A stretch of 64,000 nt of DNA from Pelagicoccus sp. SDUM812005 (GTDB taxonomy: Bacteria; Verrucomicrobiota; Verrucomicrobiia; Opitutales; Opitutaceae), in NCBI RefSeq assembly GCF_031127875.1, contig NZ_JARXIA010000001.1, positions 744,001-808,000 of the forward strand, read 5' to 3'. The notes beneath the pieces are model-generated. The model searched no databases. It was not told the origin of the DNA and saw only the letters and a list, made by a program, of their open reading frames with translations. A program made the position numbers and the translations under genes. Shown piece by piece: positions 32,864 to 64,000 of the stretch. Every line of letters starts with the position of its first letter. Position 1 is the stretch's first letter.

Positions 32864-35800
32864 ATGAAATACCCCCATTCCGTTTCGATTCCCATACGGA
32901 GGCTGGCGTTGATTGCCAGTATTCCGCTTGTACCTGCCTTGGCGACGGCCCAGGAAAGCGATGCCGAGGAGGAGATATTCGAGCTCTCTCCCTTCACTAT
33001 CGATGGAAGTGAAGACCAAGGATACTACTCTTCCCAGACGCTTGCCGGTGGTCGGCTCAAATCCAACTTGAAAGATGTTGCTACCTCCGTGCAGGTCGTG
33101 ACTGAGCAGATGCTGGAGGATATCGGCGCCACGAGCATGGACGAGATTCTCGTCTATACGACCAATACTGACGTGATGGGCTCGATGAGCAACTACACTG
33201 CGGCCGAGGCTGACGGTGAAAGTACCTTGTCGTCCTCGTCAGCGCGCCAGAACCCGGGCGACGCGAATCGCGTGCGTGGATTGGGCAGGGCGACGCGCAC
33301 CACGAACTATTTCGAGACTTCGGTCCCGATGGATAGTTATATATCCGGGCGTGTTGATATCAATCGCGGGGCCAATTCCTTCCTGTTCGGACTCGGTTCG
33401 CCCGGTGGTATTATCAATACATCTCTGGCTCAGGCAGAATTCAGGGATTCCAACAAGATCGATATCCGATTCTCCACGGAAAATTTCGAAAGCAACTATT
33501 CCAAGCGAGCTTCCATAAACCTCAATCGTGTGGTGCTCGAGGATAAGCTGGCTATCCGTGTGGCTGCCCTGGAGGAGGAGAACGAATACACGCAGAAACC
33601 TGCGATGAAGGATTCGAGTCGTCGCTACGTAGCTGCCAAGTACAAGCCGTTTTCGGAGCATAAGGTGACCTTGAGAGCTCACTACGAAATTGGCGATATC
33701 GCGGCGATCCCGGTGGATCGCTTGGCCCCGCTCGAAACGCTTTCGACCTTTATCGATGATCCGTATGGTACTGTGTTCGACACGCCGAGCGGTCGCTGGT
33801 CCCATGATCCTTGGAATAACATTTCGAACAATGTCCAAGGCCAGGGCTATCTCGGCCAGGACGCTGAGGGGAATCCGGTAAACGTAGGCTTGTACAACAA
33901 GCAAATTAAAGCAAACGGATGGGCGATCGTCTGGGATGATACGCTCGATGCGAACGGTTTGCCGACACGGGCGACGCATACTGGGTGGACAAACAACCGC
34001 ATTCGTAGGAACACGCCGTATTTCGACCCTAATAACAATCTGACAGGCAACACGCAAAGCGGTTTGGTTCGAGGTCTCAGAATGACCGATATCGGTGGCG
34101 AGTACGCTGGATACACCCGCCAAGGTCTTGTCGATTACGAGGTTTACGATTGGCGTACGAACCTGCTTACCGGGGCCTTGGATAGCTACGAAAACGATTT
34201 CGATCGTTATAACGTTACCTTGGAAGCGGTTTCGGACAATGGAAACTACGGTATCGAGCTTTCGTATAACGAGGAAGAGTGGAATCGGGACAGTTATGTG
34301 GGAGTGGGTACTCCTGAAATCTCAATCGATAACAACCTGACGCTGCCGCTCGGCCCGGGCGAACTGTTTGGGGAGACGAATCCCAATTACGGAAAACTTT
34401 ATATCCTTGGTCTCGCTGCCAACAATACGCTTAACACGGACGTTCGATCGACAGCCCGCGCTACCGCGTTCGCGAAGTTCGACTTCGCCGATAAGTTCGA
34501 CGGAAGCCCTCTGAAGTGGTTTGGCAAGCATACGCTGACGGGACTTTACGATGACAACGTTCTCGAGCAGGAGCAGTTCGCCAATCGTCAGTTTATTTTC
34601 GGCAATGACGCTGGCTTCCACCTCGTACAGACGAACGCTACGCAGTACCAACGTCAGGTCGCTCATATGTTCTATATTAGCGATGCCTTTCCGGAAGCCT
34701 TTACGGATTCGAATTTCGGGGTATCCGATTTCCAGGTGACTGGTCTGCCTGAAAACCTGAATCACAACTACCCGGAAAACTTTACGGTACCGGTCTGGTA
34801 CTTGAGCGAAGGGGATCCTGAAAACGATCCACGCTGGAACTCTCCGATTCGCGATGAAACGGCGGAGTTGGGCGCGTTCAGTCCTGAATGGCAGCCGACT
34901 CAAGGCGCTTTGATCGAAACCGGCGTTGAATCCTACGCGGCGAATATGCAGAGCTTCTTCTTGAACGACCTATTCGTTGCTAACCTCGGTTGGCGCGAAG
35001 ATACGGTAACGCTCATTCGCAATGCCAATCCGCCTCTAACTGCCGAGAGCGTTCCCATCCTCGATCCGGAGGTTTTCAATCTCGACGGGATCGAGCCGGA
35101 GGTAATAACGGAAAGCGCTTTTTCCTATGGTCTCGTAGCGAAGGTTCCGGACAAGTGGATGCCTGAGGGTACCAACCTCGCGTTCCATTACGGCGACTCT
35201 TCCAACTTCGTTCCGAACCCAGGTGGGTTTGACTGGTACGGAGACCCCGTTCCTAGCTCTTCCGGTTCTACCCGTGAAATCGGTGCGACCCTTGGGCTTA
35301 TGAACAACAAGCTCGTAGCGCGTTTGAACTTTTACAAGGGATCCGTAGAGAACGAACCATACGTCGGCACGGATCGAGCCTATAAGCTGCTTGGTACTGC
35401 GAATGTTACCCGCGGATTTACCACGATCTGGAGCGAGGTGGATCGCAACGACCGCAATCGCGATGGGGTTTTCGACATCCAGACTCTAGTCGATCCAGAG
35501 ACCGAAATGGAGTACGAGTTCAATCCTGACGAAAACGGTAACGGTTATCTCGATATCGTGGAATTCATGACCGTCGACGATGTCGAAGTTCCAAATCCAA
35601 ACTTCGAGAGCCAATACTTTAGCCTCGACGAGTTGCTCGCTCTTGAAGCGGGATATTCGGAGCTGATGAATCCATGGGTTCGCGAGGTCACGGATTTGTC
35701 GTTGATCCCTGGATCTGAAACCGAGGATGGCGAACCGGACGTGAACAGCGGTAACGGTCTCTGGTTTACCTTGGGCGACACCGTGCAGCTGGACGCGAAG

Positions 35801-36490
35801 GGAATGGAGCTAGAGCTTACCTACAATCCTAGCAGAAACCTTCGCCTCAGCATGAACGTAACGCAGCAGGAGTCGATGCAGACGAATATTGCTCCCCGTT
35901 TGACCAAGGTGTGGAACGAGATGTTGGATATATACGAGTCCATCCCGAATTCGAAGCGTGTTAGCAACGGAGCGAACAAGCTCTCTACTGAGCTGACTGA
36001 GGATGAATTCGCTGAATCGACGCTCCCTGGTAACTTCATCCACGGTGCGACTACCGGACAGGCTTACTTCAAGGCGGTTGCTCTATCGGGATCGAACAAT
36101 CCCGAAGTGCGCGAGTGGCGCGTGAACCTGCTCGGAAACTATTCCTTCTCGGAAGGGCGTTTCAAGGGAATGAATATCGGAGGCGCTTTCCGTTACCAGG
36201 ACGAAGCTGCTGCAGGGTACGGCCTTACCACCGACCCGATTTCAGGCTTCCCTGTCCAGGATGTGTCGAATCCGTACTTCGACGAAGCGACCGAGTTCTT
36301 CGATCTATGGGTTGGCTACAAGCGCAAGGTCTTCAACGACACGGTCGATTGGAGAATCCAGCTGAACGTTCGCAACCTTTTCGCGGACAAGGATCCCTTG
36401 ACAGTGCAGTTCCAGCCGGACGGCTCGATCGCTCGCGTGGCGCTTCCAGTGCCCCGCCAGTTCTCACTGTCGAATACCTTTAGCTTCTAG
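32864..36490 (+). CDS. TonB-dependent outer-membrane receptor 2 with EF-hand-like loops
   Basis: Protein of 1208 residues from ATG 32864, which starts a signal peptide ending 'ALATAQE'; an earlier in-frame ATG adds a polar stretch without signal character. The N-terminal 'EEEIFELSPFTIDGSEDQGYYSSQTLAGGRL' is nearly identical to receptor 1. Plug: 'VATSVQVVTEQMLEDIGA', 'RVDINRGANSFLFGLGSPGGIIN'. The barrel ends 'VPRQFSLSNTFSF'. Residues 863-874 (DRNRDGVFDIQT) and 889-900 (DENGNGYLDIVE) are EF-hand-like loops in what should be an extracellular loop. Receptors 1 and 2 are clear paralogues that diverge in the barrel, so they may take different oligosaccharides. A double stem-loop terminator follows. 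There is no SusD-like lipoprotein. Confidence 0.93.
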   Translation: MKYPHSVSIPIRRLALIASIPLVPALATAQESDAEEEIFELSPFTIDGSEDQGYYSSQTLAGGRLKSNLKDVATSVQVVTEQMLEDIGATSMDEILVYTTNTDVMGSMSNYTAAEADGESTLSSSSARQNPGDANRVRGLGRATRTTNYFETSVPMDSYISGRVDINRGANSFLFGLGSPGGIINTSLAQAEFRDSNKIDIRFSTENFESNYSKRASINLNRVVLEDKLAIRVAALEEENEYTQKPAMKDSSRRYVAAKYKPFSEHKVTLRAHYEIGDIAAIPVDRLAPLETLSTFIDDPYGTVFDTPSGRWSHDPWNNISNNVQGQGYLGQDAEGNPVNVGLYNKQIKANGWAIVWDDTLDANGLPTRATHTGWTNNRIRRNTPYFDPNNNLTGNTQSGLVRGLRMTDIGGEYAGYTRQGLVDYEVYDWRTNLLTGALDSYENDFDRYNVTLEAVSDNGNYGIELSYNEEEWNRDSYVGVGTPEISIDNNLTLPLGPGELFGETNPNYGKLYILGLAANNTLNTDVRSTARATAFAKFDFADKFDGSPLKWFGKHTLTGLYDDNVLEQEQFANRQFIFGNDAGFHLVQTNATQYQRQVAHMFYISDAFPEAFTDSNFGVSDFQVTGLPENLNHNYPENFTVPVWYLSEGDPENDPRWNSPIRDETAELGAFSPEWQPTQGALIETGVESYAANMQSFFLNDLFVANLGWREDTVTLIRNANPPLTAESVPILDPEVFNLDGIEPEVITESAFSYGLVAKVPDKWMPEGTNLAFHYGDSSNFVPNPGGFDWYGDPVPSSSGSTREIGATLGLMNNKLVARLNFYKGSVENEPYVGTDRAYKLLGTANVTRGFTTIWSEVDRNDRNRDGVFDIQTLVDPETEMEYEFNPDENGNGYLDIVEFMTVDDVEVPNPNFESQYFSLDELLALEAGYSELMNPWVREVTDLSLIPGSETEDGEPDVNSGNGLWFTLGDTVQLDAKGMELELTYNPSRNLRLSMNVTQQESMQTNIAPRLTKVWNEMLDIYESIPNSKRVSNGANKLSTELTEDEFAESTLPGNFIHGATTGQAYFKAVALSGSNNPEVREWRVNLLGNYSFSEGRFKGMNIGGAFRYQDEAAAGYGLTTDPISGFPVQDVSNPYFDEATEFFDLWVGYKRKVFNDTVDWRIQLNVRNLFADKDPLTVQFQPDGSIARVALPVPRQFSLSNTFSF

Positions 36491-41416: not shown

Positions 41417-41690
41417 TGCCTGAAAATCGATTGCCCAGTTATGTTCGGTCTTACCTCCCCGTTTCCAAAGCGCTGGAAGCTTCACAGCCGTGTCGCTTCG
41501 TTTTGCGCCCTTAGAAACGAGAACGCATGTAGCATGATAATGAATACGATAGGAATAGCGAAATGATCGTCCTTTGCTTATTGTTCTTCTGCGGTCTGGT
41601 GGAAGGCTTAAAGGGAGCGTTGCACGGAGGTGCCGGGGCTCTCTGTCGGTGGGGCGCGAGCTTAGGCGTTCTTGGGTTCTGGTTCTTTTT

Positions 41691-42521
41691 ATGAGAAGCT
41701 CAGATCAGCTAGGGATTGGCCTTATTCCGTGGCGTGCGGCAATGCTTCGGGCTCTGTCGCTTTGCTTTTCGTTCGTTGTGGGAGCTTCGCTGTCTAACGG
41801 CGTTGAAAGCTACAAGCCGCGGGAAGTCGGCGGCGTCGCGGGCTTGTGGAATTGGGGCAATATCGAAGGCTTGGAAGGTGAATTCATTGATTGCGTGGAA
41901 CCGTCGGAAGACGGTTCGCTTTGGATCGGGATTGGGTCGAAAGTGGTGCGTTATGATGGGACCTCGTTTCGCGAATACGATTCGTTTAGCAGGCGGCCCT
42001 CGGCCCTGCGGGCGATAAAGGAAACCACGGGGGGCGAGGTTTATTTGATGACGCGGGCCGAGCTTTTTCGGTTGGAAGACGAAGAATGGGAACTGGTATC
42101 GAGGACGGGAGAGAATCAGGGGCGCCGTCTTCAGGAAGATAAGGACGGGCGAGTGTGGTTCGCGGGAAGCGGTCGGCTCTATAGTGTTTTGGGGGACGAA
42201 ATCCTAGAGTCGGAGTCCTTCGCTCAAAGAATTCTTGATATCGAGTTCGATCGAGCTGGAAAACTCTGGGTTTTGGATGCGGTGGGGGACACCTATCGTT
42301 GCTTGGTTGAGGGAGGTCATGTGGTAGTAAAGCGTCGGTGGGCTGCGTCGAGGAGTAGGAGCCGCCGGCAAGCCGGGTATGGGATGTTGGAGGCTACTAG
42401 CGATGGGAAGATTTGGGTGGTCGATTCGTTTTCCGGATCCCCCCCGAAGAACTTGGATACGAAAACGGGCGAGTGGAGCTCGATCGATTTCGGCGATCGG
42501 GATGCCGGAAGTGGGCGCTGA
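41691..42521 (+). pseudogene. Truncated HTCS sensor gene: signal peptide and first part of beta-propeller only
   Basis: About 276 residues. A signal peptide ('MLRALSLCFSFVVGASLSNG') precedes a propeller matching the N-terminal 230 residues of the intact HTCS proteins at 43499 and 51795. Shared blocks include 'GLEGEFIDCVEPSEDGSLWIG', 'GGEVYLMTRAELFRL', 'LDIEFDRAGKLWVLD' and 'SDGKIWVVDS'. Similarity ends abruptly near 42500. The frame then runs a few codons into a foreign sequence copied from the 3' end of the exoprotein gene and stops at 42521. All of Y_Y_Y, membrane, kinase, receiver and AraC domains are missing, so it cannot signal. It is the 5' half of a deletion or recombination fusion. 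Confidence 0.88.
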
Positions 42522-43087
42522 TCGGCGACGATGCGCTCATCGGAGAAAACGTTGAAATCGGCAAGGACGCCACGATCGGCAACGGGTTTACGATCGCGGA
42601 TGGCAGTTCGATCGGCGAATTCAACTGGCTCGGTAGCGACGCCTTCATCGGATCGGATAGCCAGGTCGACCGTTTCGTGATTCTGCGCGACGGCGCCGTG
42701 CTGGGCGACGAGGTGAAGATCGATCGCTTCAGCGAGTTTGGAGCGGGGCTGCAAGTGGGCAACCGTTCCCACATCGAGCGTTTCACCCGAGCGGGCGACG
42801 GACTCGCGGTGGGCGAGGGCTCCTACCTGGGCCGCTTTAGTTGCTTCGGCGACGAGGTGACGGTGGGTGATCGTGTGGAAACGAACCTGTTCACGACGGT
42901 TGGATCCGGTGTAAGCATCGGAAGCGACGGGGAGATGAGCTACTTCGTAGTGATCGGCGAGGGAACGACCATTGGTGACGGGGTGACGATTGGGCGCTTC
43001 GTACGAATCGGCAAAGACGTTCAGATATCTGATGGGGCGGTGATTCGCTCCGGATCGCGCATCGCCGACGGCGAAGTGGTTGAGTAG
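42512..43087 (+). pseudogene. 3' remnant of a giant exoprotein gene: left-handed beta-helix tail without a start
   Basis: About 191 residues of hexapeptide-type repeats, 'ALIGDDALIGENVEIGKD' through 'SRIADGEVVE', with no internal stop. They correspond without any insertion or deletion to the last 191 residues of the protein at 56140 (about 14 differences). The frame differs from that of the HTCS fragment, and no proper start or ribosome site precedes it, so it is probably not translated. The terminator downstream is also duplicated. It represents the end of a lost paralogue of the 56140 or 61137 genes, brought next to the HTCS fragment by deletion or ectopic recombination. Confidence 0.88.
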
Positions 43088-43111
43088 CCAATCCTGACCT
43101 ATTGAGTGTAC

Positions 43112-43147
43112 AAGGCGCCTCCCTGTTGGGGAGGCGCCTTTTTTTTT
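43112..43147 (+). terminator. Rho-independent terminator, duplicate of the one at 60781
   Basis: AAGGCGCCTCCC pairs with GGGAGGCGCCTT over a TGTT loop, followed by a long T-run. The same stem, one base changed, ends the gene at 56140, showing that the duplicated block includes the terminator. Confidence 0.93.
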
Positions 43148-51518: not shown

Positions 51519-51794
51519 CGTATTCAGAGAGATAGGTACGAGAGGTGGGGCAGATCCTAGGGCGGGACCTTTTTCGATGCCGCTTGAACCCTACTTAAAA
51601 TAGCGGTGGTCGCTTGTCCGCTTTTTGCCTATGGTCAGAAGCCTGTTTCGCGCCTGTGGGAGACGGGCTTTCTCCGTTTGCTTCGGACAGGGAGCCTCCG
51701 TCTCTGGCTTGCGCGACTGCGTTGAACCCCAACCCCTATTTGTAAGTCGTGAATTTGAAGCAGCGATTGGCTACTGAAGCTCGTGGCGAATAAG

Positions 51795-54700
51795 ATGAAA
51801 GTCCTGTTCGCTTACTTGGATTGCATGAGGCGAAAGCGTGGGATCCTCAAGGGAACCGGTTTATCGCTTAGAGGGCAGGCTTGGGGCTTGTTCCCATGGG
51901 GCGCCTATCATTTTCGGCTTGTCCTTGGATGCGCACTTCTTTGCTTCGCTTCTTTTCTGGAAGGAGCCCAAGCGTATTCGCCGTCCGAAAGCGAGGTCAT
52001 TGGAGATGCCTGGCGGTGGAGCGAAATCGAAGGGCTGGGCGATGGCTTCATTCGATGTTTCGATTTGGCCGAGGACGGTTCTGTCTGGATCGGCAAGGAA
52101 GGATTGGTGCAGCGCTACGATGGAAGCTCCGTTGAGGAATTCGGCGTCTTTAGTTCTCCTCCGTCGACCTTGGGAGCGGTCAAGCAGTGCGCTTCGGGAG
52201 AAGTGTACCTGATGGCGCATCAAGAGCTTTATCGTCTCCAGCAGGGAGAGTGGGTGCAAATCGCGGGGGATGGCCCTTTCGAAGGGCATCGTCTGCAGGA
52301 GGGGCAAGACGGCCGCGTTTGGCTGGCTTCTCGGGGGAGGATTCTCAGCGTTGCGGGAGACGAGCTCGTTCGATCGGAGCGGCTGGCACGCAGGATTCTC
52401 GATATCGCCTTCGATCGCTCAGGTGACCTTTGGGTGCTCGCGGAAGAGGGTAGCGTCTTTCGCTGCGAGGTGGAAGCGGGGACGGCGATCGCCCGGCAGG
52501 AGTGGGTAGGGGATACGTCGCATTTGCGGGCGAAAGCGGGTATGATCGAGGTGGCGAGCGACGGACGGGTCTGGGTGGTCGACTCCCTCTTGCGACGATT
52601 GCCGCAGGTCTTTGCTCCGGAGACAGGGCGTTGGCAGGAGATAGACCTGCGTCGTTTCGGCGGGACCAACGTAAACTATGCGATCTGGGAAAGCCGGCCA
52701 GGAAGGATGCTGATTTCCGGAGCGGAATCGATTGTCTATCAGTCCGGGGACGATTGGCATTCGGTGCCGAATATCGACTTGGATAAGGGGCTACCGGTTA
52801 CCTCTATGAGCTCGGGTAAGGATGGAGCCCTGTGGTGCTTGCAGAGTAGTCGTTTGAAGTCCCGCAGTCGTTTGTCGCGTATCGACTACGCTGGGGAACG
52901 GTGGAAGGCGTATCAGGGATTAAACTACCAATGCGATTTGGGGGATGGGCGGCATTGCTTCCTTACCCAGTCGGGCGAACTTGTTGTTCAGGACGCGAAA
53001 GGGGGCGATTGGAAATTGTACGACGAAAGCGACGGGCTGATCGATAATCCCGTTGTCGCGCTCCGGGACCGGAACGACGAGCTTTGGGTGGCTGGCTCCC
53101 ATGGCGGTCAGGCTGCGGTCAACCATTTCGATGGGGAAGCTTGGGAGCTCCTGGAGCTGCCGGAGCTTGGGCGCTTCGTCAGCCGCTTTGCGGCGAAAGC
53201 GTTATCTGACGGCAGCTTGGCCTTTGGGTATGGGCAAGCGCGAAGGCATTGGAAGGGGGCTGGAGGAATCGTTCGCATCCGTCTGGAGGCGGGGCGCTAT
53301 GTGAAGGAGAGGCTGGAGAATCTGGAGTACAATCGGATCGTGTCGATCGAGGAGGCAGAGAATGGAGACCTGCTTTATAGCAAGAATCGCATCTATCGCT
53401 ACGCGAACGGAGAATCGTCTCCGCTCGATGTGCCCTTGAAGGGGGCGGGGAGTTGGATCGATGAGTTTCACCCTCAAGGCCAGGACAAGCTCTGGTACTG
53501 CAGTTGGGGGCAGGGCGTGCACTACTACGACGGCCGGGAATGGCAGGTCTTTACGGAGAGCGAAGGCTTGAGTTCCGATTTCGTTTCGAACCTGCTTGTG
53601 CTGGAGGACGGGAAGGTTTTGGCCCTTACGGCGAAAGGGCTGGATCGCTTTGTCGATGGGGAATGGCATGCGGTGGCGGGCCCGCCGCTGGAGGGAATAC
53701 GGGAAGGTTCGACGCTGCGTCAATCGGCGGATGGAACGGTATGGGTCAATCAGGCGGCGCCCAGTTGGTTCGTTACGCGCGATTCTAGGATGGAGCCGGG
53801 GCTGGATTTCGCATGCTGGCGGTTTCGGGCGGATGAGCAGGCCCCGCAGACGCAGGCGTCGTTTTTCGTGGAGCCGACGAAGTATTCAGATGCTGCATAC
53901 ATCGTATGGGAAGGCCGTGATCCTTGGTCCGAAACGGCGCAAAGCGCCTTGCAGTATTCCTATCGGCTCGACGACGGGGAGTGGTCGCCCTACGGCTCCG
54001 AAACGTCCACCTATCTCTCCGGGCTTTCGCCGGGCGATCACTTTTTCAGGGTGAGGGCGCGGGACCAGGATAGAAATGTGGATACAAGTCCAGCCGTGCT
54101 GGTGTTTTCGGTGGTCTTTCCATTTTGGGAAAGCGCTTGGTTCAAGGTAGCTGCGGTGGCCTTTCCGCTGGCGGTGGTGGGCTTTGTCATTCTGTTGGTT
54201 GCCCAGAAGTTCCGTCATATGGCGGAGCTAGACGGGGTGCGCACGCGTTTCCTGATGAACATTTCGCATGAGCTCCGTTCGCCTTTGAGCTTGATCATGA
54301 TGCCGCTGGAAAAGCTGAAGAAGCAAGGCGGCGATGGGGATCGTTCGCATGACTTGGCGACGGCGATTCGCAGTACGCAGCGCTTGAACCAGCTCGTCGA
54401 TCAGTTGTTGGACCTGCACAAGGCGCGTGCCCTAAAGTATAAGTTGAATCCAAAAACTGGCGACATCGTCGGATATACGCGGGCGATCGTATCCGATTTT
54501 GGGAACCTCGCTGAGGGGCGAGGGCAGCAGGTGCGATTTTCCTCCAACGAGGAGGAGTACGTGACTCGATTCGACGAAGATATCTATCGCAAGATAATGG
54601 ACAACCTAGTTCTCAATGCGATCAAGCACTCGCCCGCGAATGCGGAGATCTCCGTATCGCTCCAGGTGGGTGACGCTGCCGAGACCTTGCGGCTGGTGGT

Positions 54701-55811
54701 GGAGGACAATGGAGAGGGGATTCGGCCGCGGGCCTTGAAGAGGATTTTCGAACCCTTTTATCACGATGCCAAGGAGTCCGGCGAGCGGATGAGGAGTTTC
54801 GGGATCGGTTTGGCCTTGGTGAAGGAGCTGGTGGAGTTTTGCCAAGGTTCCATCGTGGGCGAAAGTCCGATTCGCCATGACGCGGCCGGCCGTGGCTATG
54901 GGGCTCGCTTTACGGTTGAGTTGGCAGGCATGCCCCGTTGCGAAGAGCGGCAAACGGAAGCGCGAGGGCAGGCGCCGGCGCCGAGCGATCCGAAACGGCA
55001 TCTTGGGGCGAGCCCGGTGGTCGCGACGAAGGGGGAGGGTGGGAAGCCGAGTGTGTTGCTGGTGGACGACCATGATGAACTGCGGCAGTACTTGGCCCGC
55101 GAGTTGGCGGCCGATTTTGCGGTCTTGGAGGCGGGTAGCGGTCGCGAGGGGATCGAATTGGCCGTGCAGCGCATGCCGGATATTATCGTGGCGGATGTGA
55201 TCATGCCGGAGATGAGCGGGGTCGACTTTTGCGATGCGCTGAAGAAGAAGGTGGCGACAAGCCACATACCGATCATTTTGCAGACCTCGCTTGCCTCTGA
55301 CGAAAGCGAGGCGGCTGGACTTGAGGCGGGCGCCATCGACTACGTGGCGAAGCCGACTTCCGTGTCGCTGCTCAAGAGGCGGATCTATAGCCATTTGGAT
55401 GCGAGGCGGCGCTTTGCCAAGCACCTGAGGACGCAGCTTTTGGAGCCGGACGAACCACTTGACTCGGGGGGCGGCGAAAACGATGCCGAAGTGGAATTCG
55501 TGCGGAAAATCCAATCCCTATTGGAGCGGAATTGGGACAAGGCGGAATTCAATGCCGATAAGCTTGCCAGCGAAATGGGAATGGGACGGAGTTCCTTCTA
55601 CGACAAGTGTAAGGCGATTACCAATACGTCTCCAGCGGAAGCGATCAAGGCGTATCGCCTCGCCAAGGCCAAGGAGCTCCTGCTGCAGGGAAAGTCGGTG
55701 GCGCAGGTCGCCGAATGGGTTGGGTACTTCGAGACGAGATCCTTTTATCGGGCCTTCAAGAAACGTTTCAATTGTACGCCGTCCGAGTTTCAAAAGGCGG
55801 CCAAGGTGTAG
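51795..55811 (+). CDS. Hybrid two-component sensor-regulator (HTCS) 2
   Basis: Protein of 1338 residues from ATG 51795; a GTG four codons upstream or an ATG at 51825 are alternatives. Same architecture as HTCS 1: N-terminal signal anchor, propeller ('EDGSVWIGKEGLVQRYDGSS', 'DGRVWLASRGRILSV'), Y_Y_Y domain, transmembrane helix about 781-804. The kinase has His825 in 'ISHELRSPLSLIMMPLEKL' and HATPase motifs 'DNLVLNAIKHSP', 'VEDNGEGI' and 'FGIGLALVKELV'. The receiver has Asp1134 ('IIVADVIMPEMSG'). The AraC HTH has 'LASEMGMGRSSFYDKCK'. The sensor part differs from HTCS 1 at many surface positions, so the ligand may differ. It stops 328 bases before the exoprotein at 56140 and is the prime candidate to recognise the shared element at 55917 and 60868. 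Confidence 0.95.
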   Translation: MKVLFAYLDCMRRKRGILKGTGLSLRGQAWGLFPWGAYHFRLVLGCALLCFASFLEGAQAYSPSESEVIGDAWRWSEIEGLGDGFIRCFDLAEDGSVWIGKEGLVQRYDGSSVEEFGVFSSPPSTLGAVKQCASGEVYLMAHQELYRLQQGEWVQIAGDGPFEGHRLQEGQDGRVWLASRGRILSVAGDELVRSERLARRILDIAFDRSGDLWVLAEEGSVFRCEVEAGTAIARQEWVGDTSHLRAKAGMIEVASDGRVWVVDSLLRRLPQVFAPETGRWQEIDLRRFGGTNVNYAIWESRPGRMLISGAESIVYQSGDDWHSVPNIDLDKGLPVTSMSSGKDGALWCLQSSRLKSRSRLSRIDYAGERWKAYQGLNYQCDLGDGRHCFLTQSGELVVQDAKGGDWKLYDESDGLIDNPVVALRDRNDELWVAGSHGGQAAVNHFDGEAWELLELPELGRFVSRFAAKALSDGSLAFGYGQARRHWKGAGGIVRIRLEAGRYVKERLENLEYNRIVSIEEAENGDLLYSKNRIYRYANGESSPLDVPLKGAGSWIDEFHPQGQDKLWYCSWGQGVHYYDGREWQVFTESEGLSSDFVSNLLVLEDGKVLALTAKGLDRFVDGEWHAVAGPPLEGIREGSTLRQSADGTVWVNQAAPSWFVTRDSRMEPGLDFACWRFRADEQAPQTQASFFVEPTKYSDAAYIVWEGRDPWSETAQSALQYSYRLDDGEWSPYGSETSTYLSGLSPGDHFFRVRARDQDRNVDTSPAVLVFSVVFPFWESAWFKVAAVAFPLAVVGFVILLVAQKFRHMAELDGVRTRFLMNISHELRSPLSLIMMPLEKLKKQGGDGDRSHDLATAIRSTQRLNQLVDQLLDLHKARALKYKLNPKTGDIVGYTRAIVSDFGNLAEGRGQQVRFSSNEEEYVTRFDEDIYRKIMDNLVLNAIKHSPANAEISVSLQVGDAAETLRLVVEDNGEGIRPRALKRIFEPFYHDAKESGERMRSFGIGLALVKELVEFCQGSIVGESPIRHDAAGRGYGARFTVELAGMPRCEERQTEARGQAPAPSDPKRHLGASPVVATKGEGGKPSVLLVDDHDELRQYLARELAADFAVLEAGSGREGIELAVQRMPDIIVADVIMPEMSGVDFCDALKKKVATSHIPIILQTSLASDESEAAGLEAGAIDYVAKPTSVSLLKRRIYSHLDARRRFAKHLRTQLLEPDEPLDSGGGENDAEVEFVRKIQSLLERNWDKAEFNADKLASEMGMGRSSFYDKCKAITNTSPAEAIKAYRLAKAKELLLQGKSVAQVAEWVGYFETRSFYRAFKKRFNCTPSEFQKAAKV

Positions 55812-55916: not shown

Positions 55917-55956
55917 TTAGGACGTTGTGTCCTAGGATTTGGACGGATTGACATTA
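55917..55956 (+). promoter_or_regulatory. Conserved 40-bp promoter element of the exoprotein genes, copy 1
   Basis: Order of blocks: TTAGGA, TGTCCTAG, GGACG, TGACATTA, with the same spacing as at 60868-60907 (about 32 of 40 bases identical). The first two blocks hold a perfect inverted repeat TAGGAC-N5-GTCCTA. A GCTAGAGT, possibly the -10 region, follows about 18 bases later. It lies 184 bases before the start codon. Confidence 0.7.
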
Positions 55957-56139
55957 TGCCAAAGAGGCCGGGGCGCTAGAGTGGTCGGCTTAGAAGGGAG
56001 CCCTGCTTGGCATGCCTATTTCGGTTGCGGAGTAGACGCTTGGCTCGCGAGGCCCGCGCCGAACGAGCCATGTCGGTTCGGCCCTTTGCGGAGCTGCCCC
56101 CTCTTTACCTCAAACCTCAAAATAAGAACGAAGTCGTTT

Positions 56140-59100
56140 ATGAAGAAAAGAAACGTATTGCTTGGTACCTGTGTAGCGCTGATGGGCGCTGCGGGTAGCT
56201 GGGCCCAGAACACTGTTCTCTATCAGGACAGTTTTGACGATGGTTCGCTGTCCACGAATGCGAATGGAGTGGGCGGCGGCGCTCTCACCACTTCGATAGA
56301 AGCCCACTCCTGGGAGGAAAGCGGCGGCGAGGCCGTGTATGTTTCGCCGGGGAGGACCTACACCCGTCGGGCGCTGATGTATTCAGAAAGCGCCTTCCAA
56401 TCCGATACGGGCTTCGTGCTATCGGTGGCCTTCACCACGGGGACGATCCAAGATTCGGCGGCCCATAATCTCTCATTTGGATTGGTGAGCGCGGAAACGG
56501 ATTTAGCGAGTTACGCAGGCTTCAACCCTTTCCAAGCGGAGACTGGAGTCTATAGCGTCGGGGCTAACGTCACGCCTGATGGCGGCGAACTCGCCCAGGG
56601 GCTCAACTTCACCGATGGCGCGACGGTCACGACTCTCGATCAGTCTGGAACCAAGGTTCAGTTCAAAGCGGGCCAAACCTGCGAGGCGACGATTGAGATC
56701 GGCGTCGGCGGCTACTGGTGCCTCCGCATCGATGGCGAATACGAGGCGTCGGGCGTCCTGCTCGAGGAGATTGACCTGAGCAAATCCTATCATGTCGTCG
56801 TCTACGGACAGGACGACAACGGGGGCGGCAAGTCTATCCAGTCGATCACGCTCAAGCGCGGCTACCGGCCCGGCGAGCGGGCGGCCCATCTCAGGGGTGG
56901 ATGGATAGGAGGCCAGCTCGACCTTGAGAGCGTTAGGCACTTTAAGACCATGGATTCCGTCGGGACTACGTTCACCGATGGGGCAAGCCTTTCGGCCCAG
57001 CAACTCGTGCCGCACAAGCTCATGGAGCAGATCGCGCTGGATGCAGGGATCGAGTATATCGTCGCTCCGACATGGGGCGACCTGAGCCGCGACGAGCCGG
57101 AGCATGATTCCATGCTCGAGAAGATCATGGAGATAAAGGCTGCCGGCTTTAAGGTGAAGACCTACACCAACAGCGAAAACTTCGTTGGCCCGAACCAGCC
57201 GCACCTGCAGCCCTTCGTGGACGCATGGATGGCTTGGTGCGATACCGACCCGGAAGCGCAGGCCTTCATCAATAGCCAACCTTTCCATACCGGTATTTGG
57301 AATCGGGATACGCAGCAGTATGAAGATGCGAGCGAGACGTATCCTTACCGAAAATACATGTTTTGCTACGCGGAGTTTATCCTAAAGGACCATTCCTTGC
57401 GTTATGGCGAGCACTTCGCGGGGTGGATCTTCGACGATGGTTCCACCATGGAGCAGATGGGAGACAATGCGACCAGCGGCCTTATCGAGGAGCAGCGCAT
57501 CTATCAGGCTTACGCAAATGCGGTCCATGCGGGCAATCCTGAGATCCCGATCGCTTTCAACAATGGACGTAGCACGGTAAGCTATGCGTCCTTTCCTTTC
57601 GCCCACGCGGTACGCTTCGACGACTTTACGTTCGGGCATGCTTTTGGAGGCAACAATGACCATGCGAGCAAGGAGGGCGGCCAGTTCGACAGGAACTACC
57701 TGCACGTGCAGCGCATGACCGAGACTAATGGCTACGTGCACGATGGCGGCGCCTGGGAGTGGGACGACTTGATCGTTGGAAACTTCCATTCCAAGCTGGC
57801 TACTACGGCTTGGAAGTACGGTCCCGTTCAAGCTTGGGAAGAAGCGGACTTTTTGGCGTGGAATCTCGAAGCCTTGCAAGCTGGTGGCCACATGACTTGG
57901 GGAGGCTCGCATCCGCGAACCTCTGAAACCCTCTATGGTTGGGCTTCCGATTTATTGAAGGCCCTCGACGATCACCTCGCCGCTAACCTGGACCCCGGCG
58001 CCCCGAACTGGGCTCGCTATGCGACGATTTTACCGGCTGCGGAAATCGGAAAGCCGTACTCGCATACCCTCCAGAACGACATCGATTTCTGGGATCCCGA
58101 AGGCGATGCGGTAACGCTCTCCCTTGTCGGAGCTCCGGCCTGGCTGAGCATCGGTGAAGTGAGCCCCGGAGTGTGGGAGTTTTCGGGTACTCCTAGCGAA
58201 TCGGAGGCGACGGAGCTTGCCTTCGAGTTGAGGGCCGCCGATGCGAGCGGTTTCGAGGCCCGCAAGGTTACGCTCAGCGTTCTAAATGCCAACGCGGTCC
58301 CCGTCGCTGATGCGCAGGACGTGGTGTTGGATGAGGACACGTCTAGCCCGATTGCCTTGACAGGTTCGGACGCGGATGGAGATGCCTTGAGTTTCGTGAT
58401 CGTGACGCCACCGGCAAACGGAAGCCTGAGCGGAACGGCTCCCGACCTTGTCTACACGCCTGAGGCCGATTTTGGCGGTTCGGACCACTTTACCTTCGTG
58501 GTGAACGACGGACGCGACGACAGCGCGGAAGCGACGGTATCCATCACGGTGACGCCGCTAAGCGACGATGCTCCGGTCTTCTCCGCGGACACGATCGTTA
58601 AGCCGGTCGCGGACTTGGAGGTTGCCTACAGCGCGTCTTTGCAGGGCGCGGCGACGGATGCGGATGGCGACAGCTTGAGTTACGCGAAGCTCAGCGGTCC
58701 GGCTTGGTTGAGCATCGCTCCCGATGGTACCTTGAGCGGCACGCCCGCTGAGGACGACAAAGGCTTGAACAGCTGGAGTGTCGAAGTTTCCGATGGTAGT
58801 GGAAGAAGCGCTACAGCGACCTTGAAGGTTATCGTTGGTTGGACTGGCGGATTGATCGCCCATTGGGCGCTCGACGATGCTGCCGGAACGACGGTAGCGG
58901 ACAGCGCGGGATTCGGTTTCGATGCCACAGCCAGCGGCACGGAATGGGTTGCCGGCGTGCAGGGCAGCGCCTTGGGATTCGATGGCTCTGCTAGCATCGT
59001 CGATCTTCCCGCTGAGGCGTTTAGCACCTTGGACGAGCAGGCCACGATTTCCCTGTGGATATTGGGAAGTAGTTCTCAACCCCGCAGGGATGTGACCTTC

Positions 59101-60756
59101 ATCGCAGAAGACGCCAATGGAAACAATGTCCTGAACTTGCATCTGCCGTGGATCAGGAATCTCGTCATCTTCGATGGGGGCAATAGCGGGACCTCCTCGA
59201 CCGACCGGACCGCCTTCACTGCGAGTCCAGTCAACTACAAGGATGCGTGGAACCATTGGGTGTTCACGAAAGACGCCACAACGGGCGAGATCGCGTTCTA
59301 CCTAAACGGCGAACTCGTGCATAGCGCCAGTGGGAATACGAAGACCATGGGCGGCATCGTGAAAGCGACGCTCGGCGGTGACGGAGACTTGTTCTACGAC
59401 GGTTTGATCGATAGTTTCCGCGTGTACGACGTGAGCCTCGACGCGGCAGAGGTTGCGAACCTGTATACGAGTTACGGATACAATAATCTTCCGCTTGCGG
59501 AGTCTCAGAACCTGACAACCACGGAGGACGCTGCCTTGCCAATCGCATTGCTCGCTTCGGATGTGGAGACCAGCGCTCTTAGCTACCGCATCCTAACGCC
59601 GCCAGCCCACGGTACGCTGAGCGGAGAGGCTCCAAACCTCCTCTACACGCCGGACCTCGACTTCAGCGGTACGGACAGCTTCACCTATGTGGCGAACGAC
59701 GGCCGGGACGACAGTTCCGAGGCGACGGTGAGTATCACGGTCGAGGCTGACTACGATAGCGACGGCATCCCGGACGAAGCGGACCCCGACGACGACAACG
59801 ACGGTACGCCAGATGAGTTGGATGCCTTCCCCAAGGACCCAACCGAGGATGCGGATGCCGACGGTGACGGAATTGGCGACAACGCCGACTTGGACGACGA
59901 CAACGACGGCACGCCCGACAGCTCGGACGCGTTCCCCAACGACCCGACGGAAAACGCTGACAACGATCGTGACGGAATTGGCGACAATGCCGACCCCGAC
60001 GACGACAATGACGGCGTCGACGATCTCGTGGACAGCTGCCCGACCACGCCCAATGCGGACCAGGCCGATATTAACGGCGACGGTTACGGTGATGTTTGCG
60101 TGGATACAGGCTCGACAGTCGATGCCAGCGCCCGTCTGGGCTACAACCCCTTCGTCGGCGCCGGTTCGGTGATCGGCAAGGGGGCGCTGATCGGCGACAA
60201 TGCGCTCATTGGCGAAAACGTTGAAATCGGCAAGGACGCCACCATCGGCAACGGGTTTACGATCGCGGATGGCAGTTCGATCGGCGAATTCAGCTGGCTC
60301 GGTAACGATGTCTTCATCGGATCGGATACGCAGGTCGACCGTTTCGTGATCCTGCGCGACGGCGCCGTGCTGGGCGACGAGGTGACGATCGATCGCTTCA
60401 GCGAGTTTGGAGCGGGGCTGCAAGTGGGCGACCGTTCCCGCATCGAGCGCTTTACCCGAGCGGGCGACGAACTCGCGGTGGGCGAGGACTCCTACCTGGG
60501 CCGCTTCAGTTGCTTCGGTGACGAGGTTACGGTGGGTGATCGCGTGGAAACGAACCTGTTCACCACGGTTGGATCCGGCGTAAGCATCGGAAGCGACGTG
60601 GAGATGAGCTACTTCGTGGTGATCGGCGAGGGAACGACCATTGGTAACGGGGTGACGATCGGGCGCTTCGTGCGTATCGGCAAAAACGTTCAGATATCTG
60701 ACGGGGCGGTGATTCGTTCCGGCTCGAGCATCGCCGACGGCGAGGTGGTTGAGTAG
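56140..60756 (+). CDS. Giant secreted modular protein A: ConA-like, unassigned TIM barrel, Ig/cadherin, LamG, TSP3 and beta-helix tail
   Basis: Protein of 1538 residues from ATG 56140, the start of a signal peptide ending 'GSWAQ'; the open frame upstream lacks signal character and overlaps the promoter element. Modules: ConA-like lectin fold about 24-243; TIM-barrel-like domain about 249-615 with 'FAGWIFDDGSTM' (Asp432/Asp433) and 'AFNNGRSTVSYAS'; He_PIG about 625-717; cadherin-like about 720-805; He_PIG about 808-900; LamG about 902-1114; cadherin-like about 1115-1202; thrombospondin type 3 calcium repeats (DxDxDGIxD) about 1203-1322; left-handed beta-helix hexapeptide tail about 1326-1538 without any histidine. 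It is probably an extracellular or cell-surface glycan hydrolase. The barrel's 'WIFDDG' recalls clan GH-R (GH29/GH107), but I cannot assign a family. It is controlled by a promoter element shared with the next gene. Confidence 0.85.
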   Translation: MKKRNVLLGTCVALMGAAGSWAQNTVLYQDSFDDGSLSTNANGVGGGALTTSIEAHSWEESGGEAVYVSPGRTYTRRALMYSESAFQSDTGFVLSVAFTTGTIQDSAAHNLSFGLVSAETDLASYAGFNPFQAETGVYSVGANVTPDGGELAQGLNFTDGATVTTLDQSGTKVQFKAGQTCEATIEIGVGGYWCLRIDGEYEASGVLLEEIDLSKSYHVVVYGQDDNGGGKSIQSITLKRGYRPGERAAHLRGGWIGGQLDLESVRHFKTMDSVGTTFTDGASLSAQQLVPHKLMEQIALDAGIEYIVAPTWGDLSRDEPEHDSMLEKIMEIKAAGFKVKTYTNSENFVGPNQPHLQPFVDAWMAWCDTDPEAQAFINSQPFHTGIWNRDTQQYEDASETYPYRKYMFCYAEFILKDHSLRYGEHFAGWIFDDGSTMEQMGDNATSGLIEEQRIYQAYANAVHAGNPEIPIAFNNGRSTVSYASFPFAHAVRFDDFTFGHAFGGNNDHASKEGGQFDRNYLHVQRMTETNGYVHDGGAWEWDDLIVGNFHSKLATTAWKYGPVQAWEEADFLAWNLEALQAGGHMTWGGSHPRTSETLYGWASDLLKALDDHLAANLDPGAPNWARYATILPAAEIGKPYSHTLQNDIDFWDPEGDAVTLSLVGAPAWLSIGEVSPGVWEFSGTPSESEATELAFELRAADASGFEARKVTLSVLNANAVPVADAQDVVLDEDTSSPIALTGSDADGDALSFVIVTPPANGSLSGTAPDLVYTPEADFGGSDHFTFVVNDGRDDSAEATVSITVTPLSDDAPVFSADTIVKPVADLEVAYSASLQGAATDADGDSLSYAKLSGPAWLSIAPDGTLSGTPAEDDKGLNSWSVEVSDGSGRSATATLKVIVGWTGGLIAHWALDDAAGTTVADSAGFGFDATASGTEWVAGVQGSALGFDGSASIVDLPAEAFSTLDEQATISLWILGSSSQPRRDVTFIAEDANGNNVLNLHLPWIRNLVIFDGGNSGTSSTDRTAFTASPVNYKDAWNHWVFTKDATTGEIAFYLNGELVHSASGNTKTMGGIVKATLGGDGDLFYDGLIDSFRVYDVSLDAAEVANLYTSYGYNNLPLAESQNLTTTEDAALPIALLASDVETSALSYRILTPPAHGTLSGEAPNLLYTPDLDFSGTDSFTYVANDGRDDSSEATVSITVEADYDSDGIPDEADPDDDNDGTPDELDAFPKDPTEDADADGDGIGDNADLDDDNDGTPDSSDAFPNDPTENADNDRDGIGDNADPDDDNDGVDDLVDSCPTTPNADQADINGDGYGDVCVDTGSTVDASARLGYNPFVGAGSVIGKGALIGDNALIGENVEIGKDATIGNGFTIADGSSIGEFSWLGNDVFIGSDTQVDRFVILRDGAVLGDEVTIDRFSEFGAGLQVGDRSRIERFTRAGDELAVGEDSYLGRFSCFGDEVTVGDRVETNLFTTVGSGVSIGSDVEMSYFVVIGEGTTIGNGVTIGRFVRIGKNVQISDGAVIRSGSSIADGEVVE

Positions 60757-60812
60757 CCGATCCTGACCTATTGAGTGCACAAGGCGCCTCCCTACTGGGG
60801 AGGTGCCTTTTT
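60184..60812 (+). repeat. 3' block duplicated at 42515-43147
   Basis: The last 191 codons, stop codon, spacer and terminator of the gene at 56140 recur at 42515-43147 without insertion or deletion in the coding part, with roughly 19 of 20 bases identical by eye. Confidence 0.88.
60781..60812 (+). terminator. Rho-independent terminator of giant protein A
   Basis: AAGGCGCCTCCC pairs with GGGAGGTGCCTT (one G-T pair) over a short loop, then TTT. It separates the transcript from the next paralogue, which has its own promoter element. Confidence 0.88.
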
Positions 60813-60867
60813 CGCGGGCGGATATTCGGTACTTGGCGAGTTTGGTAAGCTGCACGCCTGCAGCTGC

Positions 60868-60907
60868 TTAGGATTTTATGTCCTAGCTTTCGGACGAAAT
60901 GACATTA
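60868..60907 (+). promoter_or_regulatory. Conserved 40-bp promoter element of the exoprotein genes, copy 2
   Basis: Same four blocks and spacing as 55917-55956. A GCTATCAT, possible -10 region, follows about 19 bases later. It lies 230 bases before the start codon. Confidence 0.7.
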
Positions 60908-61136
60908 CCGGAACGACCCTTTGGAGGCTATCATAGCGGGACCCCAGCAGGACGCTTCTCGATACCCCTTTTTTTGATTTTAGAGTCCGTTCCGAACGAC
61001 GTCCGCTTTCCTTTGTAAGGAAAAAAGCGATACGAATTTCCAGATCCATAGGCGAGCGTTCGCTGTTCGGTTGGGCCTAAGAAGGGTGGGATGCCTTCCT
61101 GCTCTATACCCTAAAAACCTCAAAATAAATCAGTTA

Positions 61137-64000
61137 ATGAATAAGAGAACTAAGTTGCTCAGCAACTGCTTGGCCCTTTGGGGCACTGTGGGCTGTTTTG
61201 CCCAGTCGTCAGTCTTGTACCAAGACCGTTTCGATGGCGATACGCTATCGGTGAATACAAGTGGCGTCGGTGGCGGCGCGGTGAATCGCACGATTGAAGG
61301 GCATTCCTGGGAGGATGACGGAAACCTGAGCTTTATCGAAGCCGGCACTCCTTACACGCAAAGGGCTCTGGTGTATTCGCAAAATGCGTTCCAGTCCGAT
61401 TCGGGCTTTAGGCTTACGGTTGAGTTAACGACAGGGTCGATCGGAGACCTCGCGGCGCATAACCTTTCCTTTGGTTTGGTCAGCGTGGACACGGACTTGT
61501 CCAGTTATTCTGGATACAACCCGTTTCAGGCGGATAGCAGTGTCTACAGTTTGGGAGCGAACGTGACCCTAGACGGGGGAGCTGCTTTCCAGGGCCTGAA
61601 CTTTACGGATGGATCGACGGTTGAGAATTTGGACCAGTCCGGGACGCGCGTGCAATTCAAGGCGGGCGAACCTTGCAAGGTGTATATTGAAATCGGGATC
61701 GGAGGTTCCTGGAACTATCGGATCGATGACCAGTACGAGGCCTCGGGTGTGTTGCTCGACGGTTTCGATTTCAGCAAAAGCTATCGCGTGGTCGTGTACG
61801 GACAGGACGACCATGGAGGCGGGAAGTCGATTCAGTCCGTCAAGCTTGAGAAGGCCCCCGCTGCTGGCGAACGAGCCGCGAAGTTGCGAGGCACGTGGAC
61901 TTCCGGGGTGGATGCCAGTTTGATCGATAGCCGCTTGAAGGCATTGAAGACCCTGGATGCCTTTCAAGTCCGCTTGAGCGAGGGAGCGAGCTTGTCGGCG
62001 CAGCACTTTGCTCCGCACAAGTTGCTGGAGAGCTTGGTTGGCGGGAGCGAGGTGGTTCCGCCTTGGGGAAATCCGAGTTTGGACGAACCAGAGAACGATC
62101 CGATTATGGACCAGATATTGGACATCAAATCCGCTGGCTTCAAAGTGAAGGTCTACCTGAACTCCGAAAATTTCGTGGGATCGAACCAAAGCCAGTTCGA
62201 TCAGTTCGTGGCGAGCTGGATGGCCTACTGCGATACTGATCCGGAGGTGCAGGCCTTTATCGCCAGCCAGCCTTACCATACCGGAATCTGGGATGCTGGG
62301 GTAGGGGGCTATGTGAATGCGGAAACCCAGTATCCGTATCGGAAATACATGTTTTGCTACGCGGAATATGTGTTGAAGGAGTTCGCTCTCCGCTATGGTC
62401 CTTACGTCGATTCCTGGATTTTCGACGATGGCGGAACGATGGAGGAAAATGGGGACGTTGCTACGAGCGGACTGATTGAAGAGCAGCGCATCTACCAGGC
62501 CTTCGCGGATGCGGTACACGCGGGGAATCCGGATATTCCAACTTCCTTCAACAACGGCAGGAGTACGATTAACTACGCTTCCTATCCCTTTGCCCATGCG
62601 ATTCGCTTCGAGGACTTCACCTTTGGGCATGCTTTTGGCGGTAACAAGAATCACGCCGAGAAGGTGAGCGGGAATCAGTTCAACTTGAACTATCAGCACA
62701 TCACTCGCATGGCTGCAACCAACGGTTTTGTGCATGACGGAGGGAACTGGAGCTGGGACGATCTCGTTGTGGGGAATTTCCACTCCAAGTTGAGCACCAC
62801 GTCCTGGAAGTACGGGGCAACGCAGGCTTGGGAGCAGAACGACTTCAACCAGTGGAACCTGGAAGCCATGCAAGCGGGCGGCTCTATGACCTGGGATGGT
62901 TCCTACAACAGGAGCGTCACTGCAATTTACGAATGGGCCTACGTCATGCTTGAGAACTTGGACGCTTACCTAATGGAGCATGAATCGCCCGGCGCCCCGA
63001 ACTGGGCCCGCGCCTACACGGTGTTGCCGGATGCCGCGCGAGGCGTTGCCTATTCGCGCTTGCTGGTGCAAGGCGAGGACTTTTGGGATCCGGAAGGAGA
63101 CAGCGTTTCCCTTTCTTTGTCAGGAGCGCCGTCCTGGTTGAGCGTTAGTGAAGTCTCTCCAGGAACTTGGGAGCTTTCAGGAGTGCCCACGGAGTTATTG
63201 CCGACGCGCTATGAATTTGAATTGAGAGCGACGGATGCCTCGGGGACGGGAGTTCGCGTGGTGGAGCTGACCGTGTCTGACACTGTGGGCAAGCAAGGCT
63301 TGCTGGCGCATTGGACCTTGGACGAAGGCTCTGGCGCGAGCGTGTCCGACGCATCCGGCAATGGTCACGAGGGAACGGTTTCCGGGGCCGCCTGGGTAGC
63401 TGGATTGGATGGCAATGCTCTCGAGTTCGACGGGGCGGCGGCGACGGTAAGCCTGCCCGCGACTGCGTTCTCGAACGTAAGCGACGAGGTTTCCGTGGCG
63501 ATGTGGGCGAAGGGCGACCTCACGAACCCGCAGGCAAATTCCGTCCTCTATGCCCAGAGCGCGAGCGGTAGTCGTTTGTTGAATATCCATCTCCCTTGGT
63601 CGAACTCGAGGGTGTATTGGGATGCTGGAGACCAGTCTGGATACGATCGTATCGACAAAGTCGCTACACCCTCCGAATACGAGGGCGAATGGCATCACTG
63701 GGTATTCGCCAAGAATGCGAATACGGGGGAAATGAGCATCTACTTGGACGGCAGCTTGTGGCATAGCGGAAGCGGTCATACGACCCCGATCGGAGCAATC
63801 GATTCGGTGACGCTCGGCAGCAACCATTCCGCCAATAGCTACGACGGAATCATCGATGACGTGCAGCTCTACGATGTCGCTCTCACCGCAGCGGAGGTTG
63901 AGGACCTCTACCTCGCCTTTGCGGAAACGAACGCCTACGGCTATTTCACCGATCTCGACGATATCGGCGCTCCTGGACTGTCCGGAACGGCGACCTTCAG
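61137..64000 (+). CDS. Giant secreted modular protein B (partial, continues past the window end)
   Basis: The frame is open from ATG 61137 to the last base (954 codons seen). A signal peptide ending 'GCFAQ' is followed by the same modules as protein A: ConA-like about 24-240; TIM-barrel-like about 245-615 with 'SWIFDDGGTM' (Asp430/Asp431), 'YPYRKYMFCYAEYVL' and 'SFNNGRSTINYASYPFAHAIRF'; He_PIG about 622-718; LamG about 720-931. Unlike A, the LamG follows the first He_PIG directly, without the cadherin-like and second He_PIG domains. After LamG it reads 'YGYFTDLDDIGAPGLSGTATF' and leaves the window, so the presence of TSP3 and beta-helix tail is unknown. A long antisense open frame (61569-62873) is a shadow of this gene. 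The shared promoter element suggests co-regulation with A. Confidence 0.88.
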   Translation, partial: MNKRTKLLSNCLALWGTVGCFAQSSVLYQDRFDGDTLSVNTSGVGGGAVNRTIEGHSWEDDGNLSFIEAGTPYTQRALVYSQNAFQSDSGFRLTVELTTGSIGDLAAHNLSFGLVSVDTDLSSYSGYNPFQADSSVYSLGANVTLDGGAAFQGLNFTDGSTVENLDQSGTRVQFKAGEPCKVYIEIGIGGSWNYRIDDQYEASGVLLDGFDFSKSYRVVVYGQDDHGGGKSIQSVKLEKAPAAGERAAKLRGTWTSGVDASLIDSRLKALKTLDAFQVRLSEGASLSAQHFAPHKLLESLVGGSEVVPPWGNPSLDEPENDPIMDQILDIKSAGFKVKVYLNSENFVGSNQSQFDQFVASWMAYCDTDPEVQAFIASQPYHTGIWDAGVGGYVNAETQYPYRKYMFCYAEYVLKEFALRYGPYVDSWIFDDGGTMEENGDVATSGLIEEQRIYQAFADAVHAGNPDIPTSFNNGRSTINYASYPFAHAIRFEDFTFGHAFGGNKNHAEKVSGNQFNLNYQHITRMAATNGFVHDGGNWSWDDLVVGNFHSKLSTTSWKYGATQAWEQNDFNQWNLEAMQAGGSMTWDGSYNRSVTAIYEWAYVMLENLDAYLMEHESPGAPNWARAYTVLPDAARGVAYSRLLVQGEDFWDPEGDSVSLSLSGAPSWLSVSEVSPGTWELSGVPTELLPTRYEFELRATDASGTGVRVVELTVSDTVGKQGLLAHWTLDEGSGASVSDASGNGHEGTVSGAAWVAGLDGNALEFDGAAATVSLPATAFSNVSDEVSVAMWAKGDLTNPQANSVLYAQSASGSRLLNIHLPWSNSRVYWDAGDQSGYDRIDKVATPSEYEGEWHHWVFAKNANTGEMSIYLDGSLWHSGSGHTTPIGAIDSVTLGSNHSANSYDGIIDDVQLYDVALTAAEVEDLYLAFAETNAYGYFTDLDDIGAPGLSGTATF

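Follow-up and report, generated by a model that had tools for sequence, protein, structure and literature searches.

Two multi-modular GH107 proteins, very probably endo-alpha-L-fucanases, in a fucoidan locus of Pelagicoccus sp. SDUM812005

Fucoidan is the slimy sulfated sugar of brown algae. The 64,000-nucleotide stretch of Pelagicoccus sp. SDUM812005 analysed here (the window, on contig C31 of a 6.65 Mb genome) contains two genes near its right end, A and B, whose large products are built around a shared barrel domain. By sequence, fold and catalytic residues this barrel is GH107 itself, making A and B new members of a known family. We consider it highly likely that both are secreted, multi-modular GH107 endo-alpha-L-fucanases of an FWf3-type clade that cut the sulfated-fucan backbone extracellularly. 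The proposal draws on family, fold, catalytic residues, clade, gene context and a shared upstream element; these lead us to predict the activity and linkage of A and B, together with their mechanism, secretion and binding roles, the import route and the regulator. Start codons were chosen from the leader sequences, each ATG preceding a signal-peptide-like leader (judged by eye). The two genes have the following features, in window positions:

56140-60756, + strand: protein A, GH107 protein (predicted endo-fucanase) with accessory modules, 1538 aa; ATG at 56140, the listed open reading frame (ORF) from 55939 beginning upstream of this likely start
56209-56859, + strand: A, N-terminal lectin-like (ConA/L-type) accessory module, about 215 aa, from an all-beta model and fold matches
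56872-57990, + strand: A, GH107 catalytic (beta/alpha)8 barrel, from sequence, profile and fold matches (limits approximate)
57433-57435, + strand: A, Asp432, aligned with the MfFcnA nucleophile Asp226
57637-57639, + strand: A, His500, aligned with the MfFcnA acid/base His294 (mutated in 6dms)
57790-57792, + strand: A, Ser551, marker of the HSK clade, at the -1 subsite Pro position of GH107 rows on the MfFcnA side
58981-59457, + strand: A, Laminin_G_3 (ConA-like) domain, E 5.2e-16
59734-60099, + strand: A, TSP3 (calcium-binding-type) repeats (limits approximate)
60103-60738, + strand: A, C-terminal left-handed beta-helix (hexapeptide repeat) tail (limits approximate)
61137-64000, + strand: protein B, GH107 protein (predicted endo-fucanase), 1115 aa; ATG at 61137, about 484 bases lying beyond the window end, in L014
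61206-61856, + strand: B, N-terminal lectin-like module (limits approximate)
61863-62981, + strand: B, GH107 catalytic barrel (limits approximate), with Asp430 at 62424-62426 and His498 at 62628-62630

An earlier note on this DNA had described the barrel as unassigned and unlike any family known to its author, and had expected a GH-R-like fold with no CAZy family hit. A and B do share one barrel domain (61% identity, both ORFs on the + strand), and the invariant blocks listed in that note occur in both proteins in the variants given there. The barrel looked unassigned because neither Pfam (no significant match, only a chance-level DUF6797 at E 0.34) nor any NCBIfam match among those listed (the best 25 of 50 for A, the single one for B) covers it. 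Comparison with proteins of known structure overturns this view. A phmmer search of PDB sequences with the A barrel returned, at E up to 0.001, only the chains of MfFcnA, the GH107 endo-fucoidanase of Mariniflexile fucanivorans (6dlh, E 2.8e-107; 6dms; 6dns). A profile of 19 related sequences recovered the same three entries at 1.8e-228 or better (best 1.1e-242), the remaining nine of its 12 matches lying at E 0.007 or worse. Residues 24-715 of A, modelled with AlphaFold2 (pLDDT 82.3, pTM 0.85), contain a (beta/alpha)8 barrel of MfFcnA type. Among the best 50 of 1850 rows of a fold search with this model, MfFcnA takes ranks 1-3 (E 4.9e-48), followed by Mef1 (8bpd, GH107), a beta-mannanase and P5AFcnA (6m8n, GH107) at ranks 4, 5 and 6; fucosidases appear from rank 7, interspersed with lectin matches to the N-terminal module. 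With MfFcnA and fucosidases among its fold matches, the predicted structure bears out the GH-R-like barrel, and the family that the note had missed is GH107.

A and B resemble MfFcnA in their barrel fold, their Asp/His pair and the Ig-like domain that follows the barrel. They differ from it in sequence (36% identity for A, 38% for B), in a Ser that replaces the Pro of the -1 loop, and in an N-terminal lectin module that finds no MfFcnA match at 1e-3 by BLAST. GH29 alpha-L-fucosidases belong to clan GH-R, and the A barrel shows a distant fold likeness to fucosidases in the PDB. Membership of GH29 was rejected: the Alpha_L_fucos Pfam profile matches neither A nor B at E up to 1, and the acid/base position is His in A and B, in contrast to the Glu of GH29 given in PMC11943901 (this and the other papers cited here are drawn on as excerpts). 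The GH168 proteins FunA/Fun168A are absent from the 12 sequence matches and from the best 50 of 1850 fold rows, no direct comparison with GH168 having been made.

The active site was examined in an alignment of 33 rows, four from this genome, 11 from a genome search and 18 from genome contigs; L022/L040 and L023/L042 look like duplicates (L and G numbers are our handles for loci and genomes). In MfFcnA, Asp226 is the nucleophile and His294 the acid/base (PMC10619423, PMC11943901), and 6dms is the H294Q mutant (PMC11943901). Asp432 of A, the first Asp of WIFDDG, aligns with Asp226, and His500, the His of FTFGHAF, with His294; both are invariant (33/33 rows). The Tyr, Asn and Trp that PMC10619423 names in the GH107 -1 subsite are likewise kept: Tyr342 and Asn344 in 33/33 rows, Trp558 in 32 (one row being gapped) and Asn474 in 31, with Gln in the other two. 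The earlier note had read the paired Asp after WIF as recalling the nucleophile strand of the clan, and had taken loss of the pair in most homologues as telling against it. The second Asp, common to A and B, is indeed kept in only 7 of the 33 rows, with Ser or Ala elsewhere, and the pair was rejected as the catalytic pair; the first Asp holds its place throughout as the nucleophile equivalent, and its partner is the His.

The residue at the position of the reported conserved Pro near the -1 Trp divides the family: 17 rows, A and B included, have Ser, 15 have Pro and one is gapped. In a maximum-likelihood tree of 30 barrels (partial L052 plus L022 and L023 being dropped from the 33), a single branch separates the 15 Ser (HSK) rows with support 100/100. 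The Ser side spans Verrucomicrobiota, Kiritimatiellota, Bacteroidota and Pseudomonadota, a spread that points to transfer between phyla. B clusters with Reinekea, Tamlana and Polaribacter (support 100/97 and 100/99), while the nearest neighbour of A is not firmly placed. Two further GH107 proteins of the same genome, C and D, fall on the opposite side with MfFcnA (L048) and a Formosa algae sequence that we take, from its motif, to be FFA2.

A probable characterised member of the Ser clade was found in the Wenyingzhuangia genome G506, chosen because L039 belongs to that genus; its four GH107 matches are arranged as two neighbouring pairs. The W. fucanilytica GH107 locus tags are AXE80_07305, 07310, 07420 and 07425 (PMC8847386), with names linked to accessions in PMC10619423. 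These tags imply two pairs, with 23 tag steps from the first gene to the third; counting ORFs of at least 150 aa in G506 gives 22. Two of the G506 genes number D464/H537 and D229/H297, the values printed for FWf2 and FWf4 in PMC11943901. Because these numbers match and the pair order fits the tags, the remaining gene, adjoining that of FWf4, is most probably FWf3. FWf3 of W. fucanilytica CZ1127 (ANW96115, GH107) is described as an endo-1,4-alpha-L-fucanase, credited to Zueva et al. 2023 (PMC11943901, PMC12786026). The candidate is the best BLAST match of both proteins (56% identity to A over 751 aligned residues, 59% to B over 714) and shares with them an N-terminal lectin-like module followed by the barrel, WIFDDG, FTFGHAFGGN (FTFGHAFGG at least), HSK and Ser at the Pro position. 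Their C-terminal modules are Laminin_G, cadherin-like, TSP3 and a beta-helix tail in A, and Laminin_G and a DUF1349-like domain in B, and probably differ from those of the candidate. Adding the four G506 genes gave a 34-row tree with 16 rows on the Ser side, again at 100/100. The FWf3 candidate lies inside that clade and within the subclade of B (100/99); the FWf1, FWf2 and FWf4 candidates lie outside, FWf4 with MfFcnA. The idea that the HSK clade is a wholly uncharacterised subfamily was dropped, the FWf3 candidate falling within it. Verrucomicrobial GH107 proteins are already in print, several from 'Lentimonas' CC4 (PMC10619423), and GH107-related fucanases of PVC bacteria are the subject of a 2024 paper, which may already describe the clade.

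An endo-fucanase role for A and B is very probable from these comparisons, and we propose that they cut the sulfated-fucan backbone outside the cell. Asp432 (A) or Asp430 (B) would attack C1 of the fucose in subsite -1, with His500 (A) or His498 (B) as acid/base, both roles being carried over from MfFcnA. By analogy with the reported action of FWf3, the bonds cleaved are most likely alpha-1,4 linkages joining sulfated L-fucose residues. The N-terminal lectin-like module, the Ig-like and Laminin_G domains and the TSP3/beta-helix tail of A would hold the enzyme on its substrate or on the cell surface. Oligosaccharides would then enter through a TonB-dependent receptor, to be processed by enzymes encoded in the locus (GH29, GH95, GH141-like and sulfatases), with control by an HTCS (hybrid two-component sensor/regulator).

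Three observations weigh against this proposal. The -1 subsite Pro listed as conserved in Table 3 of PMC10619423 is Ser in A and B, as it is in the FWf3 candidate, though this Pro is a reported feature of GH107 and no definition of the family. The candidate numbers D416/H484 against the printed D401/H469, with equal spacing and an offset of 15, so that the identification depends on the order of the genes and on elimination; the gene taken for FWf1 is likewise offset by 17 from the numbers in PMC11943901, while FWf2 and FWf4 agree (L077-L079, G506). Finally, PMC10619423 warns against predicting linkage from GH107 phylogeny. A and B could be GH107 enzymes that cleave alpha-1,3 linkages, or whose specificity for sulfation or branching departs from that of FWf3, reflecting the HSK/Ser -1 subsite and the divergence between the two. 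The family includes both alpha-1,3 and alpha-1,4 enzymes, and Mef1 and Mef2 group together yet differ in linkage (PMC10619423); A and B are only 61% identical, and as B alone lies in the supported subclade of the FWf3 candidate, A at least may differ. Set against this, the FWf3 candidate, the closest enzyme that we treat as characterised, is reported to be alpha-1,4 specific (PMC11943901), and we regard a different specificity as possible but the less probable outcome.

Explanations that would take A and B out of the family, or deprive them of activity, fare much worse. An abundance of accessory modules and the presence of four GH107 genes in one region would suit non-catalytic paralogues serving as fucan-binding scaffolds, but A and B retain the catalytic Asp and His as well as the Tyr, Asn and Trp of subsite -1, and this role is very improbable. 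That they form a new, unassigned GH-R family has next to nothing in its favour: the barrel lacks a significant Pfam or listed NCBIfam match and the HSK clade is cleanly split from the MfFcnA side, but A is 36% identical (E 2.8e-107) to a GH107 of known structure, with the same catalytic pair and fold, which would make the clade a subfamily at most. With A and B read as GH107 endo-fucanases, a verrucomicrobial fucoidan locus gains its probable chain-cutting enzymes and a false claim of a new family is removed. Fucoidan turnover bears on how carbon is stored in the sea, and GH107 enzymes whose specificity is defined are in demand as tools.

The genes around A and B, with the further GH107 genes of the region, are:

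1-919, + strand: C-terminal end of GH107 protein D; the barrel is encoded outside the window, to its left, in L013
47955-51413, + strand: TonB-dependent receptor (Plug), probable oligosaccharide importer
51783-55811, + strand: HTCS, probable local regulator
55917-55956, + strand: element upstream of A, with dyad TAGGAC-N5-GTCCTA
60868-60907, + strand: the same element upstream of B
L014 10859-14053: GH107 protein C, beyond the right window edge

The neighbouring HTCS and the fucosidase-rich surroundings described in the earlier note are both present: the window contains GH29 (Alpha_L_fucos), GH95, GH141-like and sulfatase genes, and a second HTCS, 60% identical to the first, lies just downstream of B (L014 3694-7713). 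A search of a plasmid collection returned no match. The note had also presented A and B as the missing first-step endo-acting enzymes of the locus. The endo-acting role agrees with the family, but 'missing' overstated the case, as the region has two more GH107 genes. D on the left and C on the right bracket the region, and both belong to the MfFcnA side of the tree. They share with A and B the family and the genomic region, and differ in having Pro in the -1 loop and an N-terminal domain that by BLAST matched only that of the other. GH107 matches to the A barrel at 1e-10 occur in six of 387 genomes sampled from the phylum; this genome has four.

Co-regulation of A and B, also claimed earlier, finds indirect support in their upstream DNA. 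The best local alignment of the 300 bp before each gene covers 46 bp (36/46 identical, score 42, against a best of 25 in 500 shuffles) and contains TAGGAY-N5-GTCCTA. Immediately ahead of the start codons is a second, shorter similarity (27 columns; it scores 30, and 500 shuffles reach 26 at most), and the DNA left of the 46-bp element gives no A/B alignment. Searching the genome with a 40-bp pattern built from both copies, with up to three mismatches allowed, yields no third copy; the two source copies match by construction, and the informative outcome is that nothing else does. With one mismatch allowed, the dyad alone has five genome sites against nine for a reversed control, so only the longer element is distinctive. 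Among 88 loci the dyad occurs in eight, all covering this region of the same genome and none from relatives. As A and B are paralogues, both similar stretches could be leftovers of duplication; the 46-bp stretch is likelier a regulatory site, perhaps for the adjacent HTCS.

The N-terminal module and the tail of A are the less explained parts of these proteins. Pfam domains flanking the A barrel are He_PIG, Big_9, Laminin_G_3, TSP_3 and hexapeptide repeats; in B they are He_PIG and Laminin_G_3, with DUF1349 below threshold. The N-terminal module, about 210 aa long, matches nothing in Pfam, nor any PDB sequence at E up to 1. Its model from A is all-beta and of moderate quality (pLDDT 66.6, pTM 0.70), and its fold matches are L-type lectins (the Emp46p/47p carbohydrate recognition domain best, then calreticulin and legume lectins; E from 2e-7, TM about 0.5). 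The ConA-like lectin flank of the earlier note is thus upheld at the level of fold, and Laminin_G_3 and other modules are also seen. By BLAST the modules of A and B are homologous, and the module occurs in the 17 Ser rows, in the FWf2 and FWf3 candidates and in partial L052; seven proteins (L021, L030, L032, L035, L036, L039, L041) have a second copy. A profile of it finds seven of the 387 genomes, including all six with GH107, the seventh (G240) giving weak matches only. Some ORFs combine it with other families, namely GHL15 (L105), the carbohydrate esterase SASA (L099) and beta-helix (L080); of 17 ORF pieces, 10 were scanned, and most of these have only Ig-like, PKD or no domains. A fucan-binding role is predicted for the module. 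Elsewhere in the genome, the beta-helix exoprotein at L080 5057-9292 has two tandem N-terminal lectin-like modules and a Laminin_G domain.

The TSP3/left-handed-helix tail of A is rare among the relatives searched. Within the bacterial family, 10 of 150 genomes match it at 1e-8, with large ORFs only in this genome and G389 (about 50%), the remaining matches being 27-30% identical in ORFs of 260-348 aa. At 1e-25 there is none in the other genomes among the 387. A literature search on such tails found nothing on point among the papers listed. Within this genome the tail (60103-60738) recurs on three giant exoproteins whose front parts are of other kinds (beta-helix, GHL15 and PATR-type), at 55-73% identity depending on the stretch compared, and shorter versions, 39-53% identical, occur on two more:

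L016 6633-11390: tail-bearing giant exoprotein
L017 8707-13452: tail-bearing giant exoprotein, front part GHL15
L018 1012-6756: tail-bearing giant exoprotein
L018 7263-13538: shorter tail version
C38 8047-8490 (L085): shorter tail version

We tentatively suggest, as a joint reading that is more speculative than the GH107 assignment, that the N-terminal module is a carbohydrate-binding module of lectin type, so far uncatalogued, which recognises sulfated fucans and is shuffled among fucan-degrading exoenzymes; that the tail of A, as a lineage-specific module, serves in surface anchoring or sorting of otherwise unrelated giant exoproteins of this bacterium; and that the HSK clade forms a subfamily of GH107 whose -1 subsite has a chemistry of its own. 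If the accessory readings were true, a new fucan-binding module and a new type of surface tail would be gained.

Three further observations concern the window. An ORF of 1247 aa at 32747-36490 has no Pfam match at 1e-5. A gene for GHL15, a hypothetical glycosyl hydrolase of the family also seen on the tail-bearing L017 protein, lies within the fucoidan locus at 12839-14065. At 41574-43143 is a scar where the N-terminal fragment of an HTCS (42-45% identity to four HTCS) continues, out of frame, into 639 bp copied from the end of gene A (60174-60812), with 93% DNA identity and with stop codon and 3' flank included.

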